Shown piece after piece: positions 26,911 through 32,519 of a DNA stretch of 64,000 bases (position 1 is the first letter of the stretch; every line of letters starts with the position of its first letter). The notes under the pieces were generated by a model, which saw nothing but the letters and a program-made list of their open reading frames with translations, had not been told where the DNA came from and did not search any database. The DNA comes from a bacterium (GTDB taxonomy: Bacteria > Zhuqueibacterota > Zhuqueibacteria > Residuimicrobiales > Krinioviventaceae), in the NCBI GenBank assembly GCA_029561455.1, contig JAKQIY010000028.1, positions 1-64,000 on the forward strand, given 5' to 3'. The translations under genes and the position numbers were made by a program.

Positions 26911-27942
26911 TCAACGCAACAGCAGCATTTTACCGGTAGCGGTGTTACCGTTTGCGCCGGATAACCGGTAGAAATAGACGCCCGAAGCCAGTTCAGCCGC
27001 ATCGAATCTGATCTCATAATTGCCCAGTTCCCTTACCTGCATGGAGCGTACTAGATGTCCCAGTGCATCATACACATTTAACTGCACGGTTTCTGTCCGG
27101 TGCAGAGTGAATGGAATGACCGAATTATTGTTAAACGGATTGGGATAATTAGCCGCCAGGGAAAAAGAGACCGGCGCTATTTCCCGGCGCGAATTTTCAG
27201 CAATACCCACCGCTCCGGGGGTGTAGACTGCCTTGAACCTGTACCCGCCCATATCCTGCAACAGATCATCAGCCGTGGTAATTGTCGAATCGGGGACATG
27301 CAGCGCGCCGCTGGAACCGTCGATTGAGCCATAACCGACATAGTCCAGTGTAGAGGCGCTGTCCGGGGCATTGGCAATGGGAATGTTCATTTCCCAGATC
27401 GTCGAGGGCTGGCCGCGATAGAAAGAGTAATTGTGATACTCGTTAAAATCAAAGGACTTGTTGGCCTCGATGCGGCAGGTGTACGTTCCGCCCGGTAAAT
27501 CCGGACACTGCCAGGTGATTGTTTGCACGCTCGTATTGGGCGTAGCCATAGACACCGCGTCGATGTCATTCGGATACCCTGGCTGGTTCGACGCCGGGGG
27601 ATAATAATTGATTACGCCAAAAGTCGTGTCGATCACACCGCGCTTATAGCTCCACACCGGCAGGGCATTCAGGCGATTGCCGTCGCCCGAATCGATATCG
27701 GGACTGGCGGTGCGGTTGCCGCCGCCGCGCCGGCCGATAAAATTGGTGAGGAACGCTGTGCCGACATACTGTCCCTCAGCATTTTCCACCCAGATAGCGA
27801 ACTGGGTAATGTTATCATTGGGCTGAAAGATAAAATCAATCGACCCGGAAGCAGCAGCCGGGGAAATGTCGGGGAAAACAAAGCAGGCAATAATTATCAG
27901 TATCAATACATGGTACAAAATTATTTGCTTATTTTTTTTCAT
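26911..27942 (-). CDS. Secreted DUF2271-like protein with T9SS sorting domain
   Basis: A 343-residue exported protein. It has a Sec signal (ILYHVLILIIIACFVFP) and a central domain (about 35-225) resembling DUF2271 (FAIWVENAEGQYVGTAFLT, LPGGTYTCRIEANKS). The C-terminal domain (about 260-343) is a type IX sorting signal: SLAANYPNPFNNNS, a VYDALGHLVR strand and a GVYFYRL ending. It should cross the inner membrane by Sec and the outer membrane by T9SS. Substrate or partner is unknown. It lies just downstream of a DUF5020 outer-membrane-type gene (18-nt gap). Confidence 0.85.
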   Translation of the reverse strand: MKKNKQIILYHVLILIIIACFVFPDISPAAASGSIDFIFQPNDNITQFAIWVENAEGQYVGTAFLTNFIGRRGGGNRTASPDIDSGDGNRLNALPVWSYKRGVIDTTFGVINYYPPASNQPGYPNDIDAVSMATPNTSVQTITWQCPDLPGGTYTCRIEANKSFDFNEYHNYSFYRGQPSTIWEMNIPIANAPDSASTLDYVGYGSIDGSSGALHVPDSTITTADDLLQDMGGYRFKAVYTPGAVGIAENSRREIAPVSFSLAANYPNPFNNNSVIPFTLHRTETVQLNVYDALGHLVRSMQVRELGNYEIRFDAAELASGVYFYRLSGANGNTATGKMLLLR

Positions 27943-27960
27943 TAATCAATTCCTGTCAAT

Positions 27961-28677
27961 TTAATAATTATACTTGATCGCCAGCGTGGGGTACACCAGC
28001 CAGCCATCCGAGTATGAATAGACATGATAGAACAGCTTGATCTCCGTGCCTATAGCCAACAGTTTGTTGATATTGTACCAGATTTGCGGTTCGCTCAGGA
28101 ACAGCAATTTCTTGCCGGTTTGTCCGGCGGTCCAGGGGTCGCCATGATCTTTGTTTTCCGTCCACAACACCAGGTGACCAAGCAAACTGATCTTATTCCG
28201 CAGGAAATTTTGTCCCCAATACAGCGAGTATTGCAGATCATGGCTTCCTTGTGTAAAGTTGTTATAGCGGTACACCAGGTACGTGCTCCACCAGGCATTG
28301 CCCAACTGAAAGGGATACGCCGCGCCGACCATATAGGCGTTATCGATGGCATAGCCATACCCGGATTTGCTGTCCACCCCGAGTCCGCCGGAATATTCGA
28401 GGTGCAGAAACGCCGGGAAGTCCCAAAATTTAAAGGTATGGGATATTTGTGTGAACAGGTTGCCGGGATTGTTATGCGCGCCCTTGAAATCCACATCCAT
28501 TTTCATAAACATCGAGCCATACGATTCCAGCCTGAATGTTTCGAATGATAAAGTGGTATAATCCCTGCTATTATTATCCGGGTCTATGGAATGGCGAAAA
28601 TCATTATGTAACTGTAAATTCTGGGCGAATACTGATGTTGTTATTAATAACAGCGCTATCCAAAAACAGTATTTCAT
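27961..28677 (-). CDS. DUF5020-family outer-membrane beta-barrel-like protein
   Basis: A 238-residue protein with a Sec signal (MKYCFWIALLLITTSVFAQ) and alternating hydrophobic/aromatic strands ending in LAIKYNY, as in outer-membrane barrels. The WSTYLVYRYN and LHLEYSGGLG segments match DUF5020, which is distantly similar to Tsx-type nucleoside channels. A role in passive uptake of small solutes is possible but not shown. It is transcribed just before the DUF2271-like exported protein, with an 18-nt gap. Confidence 0.75.
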   Translation of the reverse strand: MKYCFWIALLLITTSVFAQNLQLHNDFRHSIDPDNNSRDYTTLSFETFRLESYGSMFMKMDVDFKGAHNNPGNLFTQISHTFKFWDFPAFLHLEYSGGLGVDSKSGYGYAIDNAYMVGAAYPFQLGNAWWSTYLVYRYNNFTQGSHDLQYSLYWGQNFLRNKISLLGHLVLWTENKDHGDPWTAGQTGKKLLFLSEPQIWYNINKLLAIGTEIKLFYHVYSYSDGWLVYPTLAIKYNY

Positions 28678-29427: not shown

Positions 29428-30891
29428 CTATATAACCTTTACATACCGGTTATTTTTCAACTGATAACCTTCGGCATGTAAAACCGCCATGGCATACATG
29501 GCGCATTCAAAACGGCGGCGATAGGTATCGCAAATCTCCTGCGGCTGCTTGTCCAGCGAGCCATGATATTCTATCGGCAGGAACACGCAAGAGCCGCCGC
29601 ACAGGTATCTTCCCCAGCAGTGGCTGCATTCTTCTTTACTGTCCACCGTGTTATTATAAAATTTATCGCGGATCGCTTCATTGATCTCGCCATCGAACAC
29701 ATTGCCCAGGTAATACTCTTTCATATCGATAAAACGCATGCACGGATAAAGGGAGCCATCCACCGCCACCGTCAGATACCCCTTGCCGGCGCCGCAGGCA
29801 TCGTTCTTGATTTTTGGATTCCATAACCGCGAAACCGCATGGGCAAAGGGATTCAAATTATAAACTTCGCCGTTCCTAGCCCTGCGAATGTACTCTTCAG
29901 CCACGTCATACAGTTGACTGTTGATTTCCTGCAAATCCACCGCTGTATTTGAGGCCGTGCCGGAACAGCCTTCAACCCCGGTCGATTCGGCTATAAACAC
30001 ACTGGCAAAGCCGACTTCATCGATGAGGTGTTTGGCCACTTCAAGGAGATGCACATCGTTGCGGCCAATAGTAGCCCGGGCATTGATCTTTTTCCTTTTC
30101 GCGATTAACCGTTTCACATTATCAATGATCGCGGCATAAGAGCCCTCGCCATTGGCTAATTTGCGGTAACGATCCTGTATTTCCGGGGGGCCGTCAATGC
30201 TCACCTGCACGCCGATTTGATGTTCATCACAAAAATCAAGACGTTGTTTGGTTAATAATAAACCATTGGTGGGTAAGCTCATGCCGATCTCGAACCCGGT
30301 TTTTTCTTTCACCTCTTCCCGGTAAGCAACCAATTTTCTGATCACCGGCATATTCATCAAAGGTTCACCGCCAAATAATTCTAACCGGACTTTTTTCTTT
30401 TTCATATCCGGGTTGGCTTTGGCGATCAGAAAATCGACCGTAGCTTTGGCCGTTTTCCAGTCCATATAGCGGCGGTCTTTTCTGTACAGCCCCTGATTGG
30501 CAAAACAATAAGAACATCTGAAATTGCAGTCGTGACAAAGATTAACAACCAGTGCGCTCATATAGCGATCACGATGACAACTGGGGGGTTTCACTGTGCC
30601 TTGCTGAGATATTAATTCGGAAGAAATCAACAAGCCGATATTTTTTAACGCTTCAAAATCCTCCCGAACTTGAGCAATTCCATATAAATCGCACAGTTTC
30701 GTCAATTGCTGTGGGTTTTTGCCTCCGCTAAAAAACTCAATAAATTGCCTGACATGCTCCTCGTGAATAACATAAACCCCCATTTGTTTGACGTTATAAA
30801 AAATTGTATATCCCCCCATTTGAAAATAATGATTTTCTGCAAGTTCGTACTTTTGTAGTGTTTCAAACACATTGGCTTGCGTCAACTCCAT
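29428..30891 (-). CDS. Radical SAM/SPASM peptide-modifying maturase
   Basis: A 487-residue radical SAM enzyme. An N-terminal domain (about 20-92) has the PqqD-like winged-helix pattern used to recognise leader peptides. The SAM cluster motif is C122-x3-C126-x2-C129 (CNFRCSYC), with GGEP at 174-177. The SPASM region carries C366, C384, C422-x2-C425-x5-C431-x3-C435 and C454, the ligand pattern for two extra iron-sulfur clusters. Relatives (SCIFF/ranthipeptide maturases, QhpD) crosslink Cys to other residues by thioether bonds. It has no signal peptide. The Cys-rich protein gene ends 19 nt upstream and is the obvious substrate. Confidence 0.92.
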   Translation of the reverse strand: MELTQANVFETLQKYELAENHYFQMGGYTIFYNVKQMGVYVIHEEHVRQFIEFFSGGKNPQQLTKLCDLYGIAQVREDFEALKNIGLLISSELISQQGTVKPPSCHRDRYMSALVVNLCHDCNFRCSYCFANQGLYRKDRRYMDWKTAKATVDFLIAKANPDMKKKKVRLELFGGEPLMNMPVIRKLVAYREEVKEKTGFEIGMSLPTNGLLLTKQRLDFCDEHQIGVQVSIDGPPEIQDRYRKLANGEGSYAAIIDNVKRLIAKRKKINARATIGRNDVHLLEVAKHLIDEVGFASVFIAESTGVEGCSGTASNTAVDLQEINSQLYDVAEEYIRRARNGEVYNLNPFAHAVSRLWNPKIKNDACGAGKGYLTVAVDGSLYPCMRFIDMKEYYLGNVFDGEINEAIRDKFYNNTVDSKEECSHCWGRYLCGGSCVFLPIEYHGSLDKQPQEICDTYRRRFECAMYAMAVLHAEGYQLKNNRYVKVI

Positions 30892-30910: not shown

Positions 30911-32059
30911 TTAGCGGATATAACTCAATTTCTGCATAGCCGTTAATGTCTGTCCGTTTTCATAGCGAACGCGGCAGAAATAGGCGCCGGTAGTGACTGC
31001 AGCGCCGCTGTTGTTGGTGGCATCCCAGGTCAGGGGATGAGTACCGGCCGTGATAGCGCCACTCATTAAAGTTTTAACTATTCTGCCGTTTATATCATAA
31101 ATCTCAACCGTGATATGACCGTTGTCGGGAACTGTAATTGTCATACTGGTTTGCGAATTGAACGGATTGGGATAATTGGTCGACAGACGGAATCTGGTTG
31201 GCGATGCCTGTACATCGCTGGACAATGCTTTGCATTCAAGCGGGCCGCGGGTTATGGTTTCGCCATTAATATCCACATCTTCCAGCAAGTACCAATAAGT
31301 CGTTGCGTTATCGACTGTGGAATCTATATATTCATATTCATGCGCCACGGCAGATGAACCGGCGCCCGGGATAATTTTGCCATTCACCGGCTGATAGGGA
31401 CCCTTTTTATCCAATGCCCGGAACAGGAAAAAGCCCAGATTATTAACTTCCGCCTCAGTTCGCCAATACAATAAAACACTATTCTTTTTGCGTGTACAGT
31501 CAAATATGTTTAAAGTAACAGGCAACGAAGGATCGTCGACCACACAGGTTTCACAGTCAACACAAACTTCACAATCAACACAGACTTCACAGCTCAAACA
31601 AATGTCGCAAGAATCACAATAACCGTCACAGGCTTCACAACTGACGCAACTTTCACAGTCCACGCAGCCATCACAAATATCACAACCGGAGTGGCAGACA
31701 TCGCAATAACCATCACAGGTTTCGCAGAAAAAACAGCTCTCACAACCAAGACAAATAAGACAACCCTCACAATCTTCACAGACTTCACAGTAACCGTCAC
31801 AAACTTCACAACCGTCGCATACTTCACAGATATTACAATAGCCATCACAACCATCACAGGTTTGACAATAGGTATTGCATTCGGCGCAGGCCGGCGAGTC
31901 GGCTTTTTTCAGCGCTTCCGGTTTGTTGATCAAGGTAATTTTCGGTTTTTGATAAGAGCAGCAATTACCGGCCGCCGGGTTGTTCACCCTGGTAAGCCCA
32001 TTAAAAGTTTGATCATTGATTTGGGCCTGGCCTTTAATATTTTTTTCAGGAGTAGACAT
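30911..32059 (-). CDS. Cys-array protein with T9SS sorting domain, putative modified-peptide precursor
   Basis: A 382-residue protein in four parts. Residues 1-57 form a polar leader-like segment without a Sec signal. Residues 58-172 hold 37 cysteines spaced three apart, with six four-residue steps (CNTYC, CDGYC four times, CHSGC); the intervening residues are mostly Asp, Glu, Gly, Val and Ile. Residues about 180-285 are a fibronectin-III-like domain of the type that precedes sorting signals. Residues about 295-382 are a T9SS domain (STNYPNPFNSQ, IYDINGRIV, GAYFCRVRY). ATG 32059 has GGAG 8 nt upstream; an in-frame stop lies 11 codons further up, so no hidden signal peptide is possible. Flanking genes encode a PqqD-like protein and a radical SAM maturase. 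Confidence 0.9.
   Translation of the reverse strand: MSTPEKNIKGQAQINDQTFNGLTRVNNPAAGNCCSYQKPKITLINKPEALKKADSPACAECNTYCQTCDGCDGYCNICEVCDGCEVCDGYCEVCEDCEGCLICLGCESCFFCETCDGYCDVCHSGCDICDGCVDCESCVSCEACDGYCDSCDICLSCEVCVDCEVCVDCETCVVDDPSLPVTLNIFDCTRKKNSVLLYWRTEAEVNNLGFFLFRALDKKGPYQPVNGKIIPGAGSSAVAHEYEYIDSTVDNATTYWYLLEDVDINGETITRGPLECKALSSDVQASPTRFRLSTNYPNPFNSQTSMTITVPDNGHITVEIYDINGRIVKTLMSGAITAGTHPLTWDATNNSGAAVTTGAYFCRVRYENGQTLTAMQKLSYIR
31544..31888 (-). repeat. Period-9/period-12 coding repeat encoding the Cys array
   Basis: This segment encodes residues 58-172 of the Cys-array protein. On the plus strand it reads as a long run of ACAxxxTTCACA-like words. The CxxC steps give a 9-nt period and the CxxxC steps a 12-nt period. 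Codons vary between units, so the array is not a recent simple-sequence expansion. Confidence 0.8.
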
Positions 32060-32084: not shown

Positions 32085-32519
32085 TTAATTCAAAAATTCA
32101 ATCAGATTTAAGGTCTTTAATGTATGGACAAAATTATTAATGTCGCTCTCGACAACTGCCGGCGTTTTTTTATATTTTAAAGCCAGGGCGTCAGTCATCA
32201 TCTCCAGGCTATGACGGCCGTTGCAGAGATTCCAGAGAAAAGAGCCTTCCGAGTTTAATAAATATTTTTTTTCTTTAAATGCAAGGGTAGAAGAAACAAT
32301 AATATGATCTTGTTTAGATTGATTTGTAACTATTGCTTTCTTTTGCCTGGGACGCAGTGTTTTAAACGTTTTATCCCCGTTTTGCTGCAAGGCTGAAAAG
32401 ACATTCTGCGGACGAATGATATCCAGAACTCCACCGGCCAGAATTACTGCGACGCCGGCTTTATTAGTAAGATTTAAAAAATCCCGCCGGCTCACGTTTT
32501 TATCAAGTTTCTTGCCCAT
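32085..32519 (-). CDS. Tat-signal protein with PqqD-like (RRE) domain
   Basis: A 144-residue protein. Residues 10-15 (SRRDFL) are a twin-arginine motif, followed by a weakly hydrophobic stretch (AGVAVILAGGVLDII) and a plausible signal-peptidase site after VFSA (about 43). Residues about 70-144 match the PqqD family, including YLLNSEGSFLWNLCNGRHS and a final LKTLNLIEFL. PqqD-like domains bind RiPP leader peptides and normally stay in the cytoplasm, so a Tat signal is unusual. AAGGAG with 7-nt spacing supports the start. It is first in the operon with the Cys-array protein (25-nt gap) and the radical SAM maturase. Confidence 0.85.
   Translation of the reverse strand: MGKKLDKNVSRRDFLNLTNKAGVAVILAGGVLDIIRPQNVFSALQQNGDKTFKTLRPRQKKAIVTNQSKQDHIIVSSTLAFKEKKYLLNSEGSFLWNLCNGRHSLEMMTDALALKYKKTPAVVESDINNFVHTLKTLNLIEFLN

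Follow-up and report, generated by a model that had tools for sequence, protein, structure and literature searches.

The window (the whole stretch of DNA that we analysed, 64,000 nucleotides) includes three consecutive genes on the same strand. They encode a protein with a PqqD domain behind a putative twin-arginine (Tat) signal, a cysteine-rich protein with a type IX secretion system (T9SS) sorting tail, and a radical SAM-SPASM maturase (Table 1). The gaps between the genes are just 25 and 19 bases, and this tight arrangement is operon-like. Farther downstream on this strand, after a gene for a 130-amino-acid membrane protein, the window encodes a T9SS-tailed protein with a weak match to DUF2271 and a DUF5020 protein (26911-28677). 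Among the near neighbors that we scanned around the operon, we recognized no ABC exporter and no leader peptidase.

Table 1. Features of the three-gene operon and the evidence for them.
Feature	Position	Strand	Evidence or remark
Tat-PqqD protein, 144 amino acids, first gene of the operon	32085..32519	-	Open reading frame; PF05402, 42.5 bits, E 8.5e-11; ribosome binding site AAGGAG
Twin-arginine motif SRRDFL, residues 10-15	32475..32492	-	Sequence; TIGR01409, 13.7 bits (cut-off 16.7), residues 9-32; shuffle test, 327/200000
Hydrophobic core of the putative Tat signal, residues 16-35	32415..32474	-	Best 12 residues, mean hydropathy 2.41
PqqD / RiPP recognition element (RRE) domain, residues 85-140	32100..32267	-	PF05402; same place in phylum-wide PqqD search
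Cysteine-rich protein, 382 amino acids, 42 cysteines, T9SS sorting tail, no signal peptide	30911..32059	-	Lowest N-terminal hydropathy of 47 T9SS-tailed proteins
Cysteine array, residues 58-172, 37 cysteines	31544..31888	-	30 spacings of 3 and 6 of 4 residues; DNA repeats
T9SS type A C-terminal sorting domain / FlgD Ig-like	30947..31174	-	TIGR04183; PF13860, PF18962
Radical SAM-SPASM maturase, 487 amino acids	29428..30891	-	PF04055, PF13186; TIGR03974; CteB 5WGG; tree
Maturase N-terminal domain, about residues 18-95	30607..30840	-	Aligns with CteB residues 5-80

The Tat-PqqD protein

The first gene starts with an ATG and has a good ribosome binding site (AAGGAGTATATTATG). A shorter form, with an internal start and without the Tat part, was rejected because there is no methionine ahead of the PqqD domain and the ribosome binding site lies at the long start. 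The PqqD-like domain that the earlier note had proposed from the letters alone was recovered by the Pfam profile (42.5 bits against a cut-off of 23.4, residues 85-140). The match spans positions 11-67 of the profile and leaves out the first strand. Single-sequence AlphaFold models of this protein and of the maturase's N-terminus have low confidence (pLDDT of 43 and 38, respectively), and we used just the order of their elements, as weak support; for the Tat-PqqD protein, the order of the helices fits PqqD.

The N-terminus of the protein reads MGKKLDKNVSRRDFLNLTNKAGVAVILAGGVLDIIRPQNVFSALQQ, which by its motif and its hydrophobic core looks like a textbook twin-arginine signal. (By eye, SRRDFL is followed by AGVAVILAGGVLDII.) To put a number on this, we used a simple rule: an RR motif and a hydrophobic stretch inside 40 residues. 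Among 200,000 shuffled versions of residues 1-60, 327 (0.16%) satisfied the rule, as did 5 of 2,494 shadow ORFs, so chance is an improbable source of the N-terminal pattern. The window's genome also encodes TatC (E = 1.2e-72). The earlier note's reading of a twin-arginine signal on the PqqD protein thus stands as a prediction by motif and core, but not by the curated Tat models, which score under their cut-offs (TIGR01409, 13.7 versus 16.7 bits; PF10399, 14.2 versus 24 bits). TIGR01409 is a short model, and we treated its low score as a missed sensitivity threshold and not as the loss of a defining feature of Tat substrates. The note had also taken VFSA as a cleavage-like site. This detail is weak: with phenylalanine at -3, it is a poor site for signal peptidase, and the signal may therefore stay uncleaved.

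The cysteine-rich protein and the maturase

Most of the cysteines of the second protein lie in a regular array. The spacing is mostly CxxC, and 27 of the 36 spacers contain aspartate or glutamate. The tail of the protein matches the T9SS sorting model TIGR04183 with 35.2 bits (cut-off 23). At the other end, we found neither a Sec nor a Tat signal, nor any hydrophobic stretch. (A signal that was missed upstream was considered and rejected, as the open frame extends for 10 codons only.) For comparison, we read 47 N-termini from the 150 T9SS-tailed places listed in the genome. Nearly all of the other 46 proteins have evident signal peptides, and the N-terminal hydropathy of the cysteine-rich protein, 0.17, is the lowest of all 47 (the next value is 1.19). 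Tat signals are present at the start of two of the other T9SS-tailed proteins (SRRKFL and SRRDFI), so this organism appears to use export by Tat and then T9SS. We infer that the cysteine-rich protein is both the substrate of the maturase and the cargo for export.

The maturase sits on its own branch of the tree, between the SCIFF, QhpD, PapB, and Nif11 maturases, and it scores under the cut-off of each equivalog model (274.9 of 425 for SCIFF, TIGR03974; 256 of 453 for QhpD, TIGR03906; 258 of 340 for PapB, NF047865). No close relative of it turned up in 82 genomes of the phylum. Among solved structures, the best match is CteB (5WGG, E = 1.4e-62), with the alignment starting at CteB residue 5. 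In the structure of CteB, the RRE is in the N-terminal domain (PMC8172795). Because the N-terminus of the window's maturase aligns with this region, and is predicted to run strand-strand-strand-helix-helix-helix (in the low-confidence AlphaFold model), this domain is probably the maturase's own RRE. If so, the operon would encode two RREs, the other one being in the Tat-PqqD protein.

Tat signals at related loci

PqqD domains are common in the phylum (64 of 82 genomes). We fetched about 70 of these places, mainly the longer frames, and read their N-termini. This survey turned up two further Tat-PqqD proteins, both above the Pfam cut-off for PqqD: one in genome G052 (NRRRFLRHTALGLTAALFTAEA; PqqD, 26.1 bits) and one in G043 (STRRQFIKIGAATLAVSLVGAGA; PqqD, 25.7 bits), which is on a draft contig where the locus is broken by frame differences. 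By looking around maturases of the same clade, we found a positional counterpart in G050 that has a similar size and a strong Tat signal (SRRDFLKYAAGIAGLALASGG); no PqqD match was recovered in it, so this is a divergent case that we assign by position. In all three genomes, the Tat protein comes first, followed by the maturase and then by a cysteine-rich peptide without a signal. Four-base overlaps link the three genes of G052. Past the hydrophobic core, the G052 and G043 proteins have plausible cleavage sites (AEA and AGA, respectively). The tree separates the window's maturase, along with SCIFF and QhpD, from a clade that holds the G052, G050, G037, and Caballeronia maturases (support 100/100). 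The arrangement with the Tat signal in trans, on a protein other than the cysteine-rich one, is found on both sides of this deep split, so it either arose in both clades or moved between them.

Beyond the phylum, we searched a sample of about 306 genomes along with plasmids and phages. A tblastn search with the Tat-PqqD protein against the plasmids gave no match. A pattern of seven cysteines at every third residue mostly hit antisense poly-glutamine or simple repeats, and in the few real cysteine arrays that we opened (such as L169 and L172), a rough ORF map gave no recognizable Tat-PqqD protein or maturase.

At other loci, the cysteine-rich protein carries a Tat signal of its own. In Caballeronia sp. 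NK8, the peptide encoded after the maturase has the Tat signal IDRRTLLKTALSLSGVIAGSTVGSESFAA and then, directly, DCSCNKESGCACVGHERCVC, which resembles YCSCNKVSQCSC of the signal-less G052 peptide. In terms of cysteine motifs, CSCNKESGCACVGHERCVC follows the Tat signal in Caballeronia, versus CSCNKVSQCSC without a Tat signal in G052. In G037, which is from the window's own genus, a WD40 propeller with a Tat signal ends in a cysteine-rich tail and is encoded beside the maturase. In Chlorohelix, a WD40 protein and another protein, both with Tat signals and cysteine-rich tails, are encoded beside the maturase. Thus, the Tat signal is either on the cysteine-rich protein or on the PqqD protein. Note that this contrast comes from seven loci and that all of the examples in cis belong to the maturase clade that does not include the window's. 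Using a PqqD model that we built from these loci, we found no discrete PqqD protein around the G037 and Caballeronia loci, so maturation there seemingly requires no such protein. At all of the related loci, the cysteine-rich proteins are putative substrates, judged by their position and composition.

The tails at some of these loci share the pattern PCGxxxPxGAxCxCxCV (L327, 2019-3422 on the minus strand; L306, 2450-3628 and 3705-4973 on the plus strand), and two of the proteins have WD40 repeats. Both in Chloroflexota and in the genus of the window, Tat proteins with this tail are encoded next to a radical SAM maturase, and the tails themselves are likely modified.

Some related loci do not follow the pattern. 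In Chlorohelix, the positional counterpart of the PqqD protein lacks a Tat core and was not recognized by the PqqD model built from the loci. This protein, on a plasmid (L306, 6346-6819 on the plus strand), and a PqqD-like protein in G046 (L301, 307-741 on the plus strand) have RRQLW and RRRFF, respectively, near the N-terminus, without a hydrophobic core; these motifs are perhaps relics of Tat signals, or perhaps the motif has another use. On a Methylocystis plasmid (L307, 4740-6589), the maturase is followed by a 128-amino-acid peptide with 19 cysteines and no signal, and we saw no Tat partner at this locus. Plasmids from Edwardsiella and Salmonella encode relatives of the G052 maturase (L308 and L309) together with a short peptide, an ABC transporter, and an S8 peptidase; this set is an uncharacterized RiPP-like cluster.

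Three of the signal-less cysteine peptides (L311, 3514-3876; L259, 316-633; L270, 4171-4371) have a leader-like stretch in common, which reads IPDKEVHIMSP, RPGLESYFVDH, and KPGLEMHIEPP, respectively, and might be what the PqqD proteins recognize. Separately, the G050 and Chlorohelix proteins have a C-terminal YWHPN in common.

Proposed export of the cysteine-rich protein

On balance, and with modest confidence, we favor the view that the modified and folded cysteine-rich protein is bound by the Tat-PqqD protein and passes through Tat with it as a hitchhiker, after which the T9SS tail would take the cysteine-rich protein across the outer membrane. In the cytoplasm, the PqqD domain (an RRE) would bind the T9SS-tailed protein, most likely at an N-terminal leader, and the maturase would modify the cysteine array, plausibly by forming thioethers from cysteine to aspartate or glutamate, as QhpD and the ranthipeptide maturases do. 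At the inner membrane, the cysteine-rich protein would cross in a complex with the PqqD protein, and the latter's twin-arginine signal would take both through Tat. In the periplasm, the tail would pass the cysteine-rich protein to the type IX secretion system. The argument for a carrier is that a folded, cross-linked protein could not be threaded through Sec and that this one has no signal of its own. We infer the binding, the chemistry of modification, the co-transport, and the order of the steps; the features of the sequence that support the scheme are the Tat-like signal joined to PqqD, the cargo without a signal, the T9SS tail, the operon-like order, the recurrence of the arrangement, and the Tat signals in cis elsewhere. 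Two further points in favor are the RRE-like domain that the maturases themselves bear at the N-terminus and the lack of a recognized ABC exporter or leader peptidase among the scanned near neighbors, in contrast to the Edwardsiella and Salmonella loci.

Two exceptions lower our confidence in the hitchhiker reading. Because the PqqD-like or positionally equivalent proteins of G046 and Chlorohelix have an RR motif without a hydrophobic core, such a motif close to a PqqD domain does not have to signify export. And because the Methylocystis peptide is signal-less with no Tat partner in sight, a missing signal can have other causes. A broader claim, that an RRE has turned into a dedicated export adaptor that feeds cargo to T9SS, and that Tat is a recurrent exit for radical-SAM-modified cysteine-rich proteins (with the signal on either the substrate or the RRE), seems to us evenly balanced between right and wrong.

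The earlier note had suggested a function in transport or in periplasmic handling of the modified protein, rather than only in modification. Transport is supported by the T9SS-tailed neighbor that lacks a signal, by the recurrence, and by the Tat signals on substrates elsewhere. Export in a folded state, which the note expected, would follow from the use of Tat. Handling in the periplasm is not needed, as the role of a carrier better explains the missing signal. Still, in a reading close to the note's, the PqqD protein might be exported alone through Tat and have a periplasmic role as a chaperone or handover factor, with the cysteine-rich protein crossing in some other way. The Tat signal and the PqqD domain would be as real under this explanation, and a T9SS-tailed cargo must pass through the periplasm, but the cysteine-rich protein has neither a Sec nor a Tat signal and no other exporter was recognized nearby. 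Also, in G037 and Caballeronia, the Tat signal is on the substrate and there is no discrete PqqD protein, which argues that a periplasmic PqqD is not generally needed. We consider this explanation unlikely.

Another possibility is that the PqqD protein does not cross: its N-terminus could act as a Tat-docking element or an uncleaved anchor, keeping the RRE together with the maturation complex at the inner membrane or the translocase, as a tether or for proofreading. Uncleaved Tat signals do exist, as in the Rieske-type proteins, and with this precedent, the weak match of the window's protein to PF10399 and its poor signal-peptidase site (FSA, with phenylalanine at -3) would make sense. However, the sites in the G052 and G043 proteins (AEA and AGA) are plausible for cleavage, and a tether leaves unexplained how the signal-less T9SS-tailed cargo crosses the membrane, so we rate it as quite improbable. 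The least probable explanation is that the Tat-like region is a relic, the PqqD domain serves the maturase only, and the cysteine-rich protein stays inside and binds metal or FeS with its T9SS tail unused: the Tat models below cut-off, the RR motifs without a hydrophobic core at related positions, and the metal binding that poly-CxxC might allow fit this, but the strong motif and core (rare by chance), the recurrence with clear Tat signals, the Tat signals in cis on cysteine-rich proteins beside related maturases, and the T9SS tail above cut-off all speak against it.

Returning to the Tat-hitchhiker reading, its parts have relatives among known systems. As with PqqD and other discrete RREs (PF05402), the PqqD domain is found beside a radical SAM-SPASM maturase and a cysteine-rich candidate substrate, but the window's protein also bears an N-terminal twin-arginine signal. 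RREs have been presented as parts of the biosynthetic machinery, in texts that mention no Tat signals (PMC7470986, PMC12710340). That Tat can transport partners with no signal of their own is known from the hitchhikers HybOC and PaoABC (PMC4273604). There, too, one partner has a signal and the other does not, but the carrier is an enzyme subunit, whereas here it would be a small peptide-binding domain and the co-transport is putative. In the QhpC/QhpD system (of quinohemoprotein amine dehydrogenase), the maturase is related to the window's, and a cysteine-rich protein, rather than a short peptide, is modified, as would be the case here; the model chemistry of QhpD is the formation of Cys-Asp/Glu thioethers (PMC8172795). 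Unlike in the window, the QhpD gene adjoins annotated ABC transporter genes instead of a Tat-PqqD gene, and there is no T9SS tail. The SCIFF and PapB ranthipeptide maturases, including CteB with its N-terminal RRE, give the best NCBIfam and PDB matches, but the window's maturase is under the curated cut-offs (275 of 425 and 258 of 340), and its candidate substrate is a 382-amino-acid protein of secretion type. Finally, the bufferins (MNIO RiPPs) are modified RiPPs that contain cysteines and have a signal peptide in the precursor (PMC12452194). Theirs is a Sec signal in cis and the enzyme is of another class, in contrast to a Tat signal in trans in the window.

In the open-access literature that we searched, we found no report of a PqqD or RRE domain combined with Tat. 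RREs and Tat hitchhikers are each already known, and the new element would be an RRE as a Tat carrier. The known role of RREs is recognition for the purpose of modification; a Tat-RRE, if true, would join recognition to export and would account for the exit of bulky cross-linked proteins from the cytoplasm. It would also enlarge the small set of known Tat hitchhiker pairs by a natural carrier that binds peptides, and it would provide a Tat-then-T9SS route that is directly testable. For genome mining, the combination of Tat and PqqD could then serve as a marker for exported surface proteins that are modified by radical SAM enzymes.

As a separate observation, most genomes of the phylum encode a discrete PqqD-like protein of 110-140 amino acids (L003, L302, and many other loci). 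At the loci that we opened, these proteins adjoin large, transporter-like membrane proteins, with no maturase beside them.
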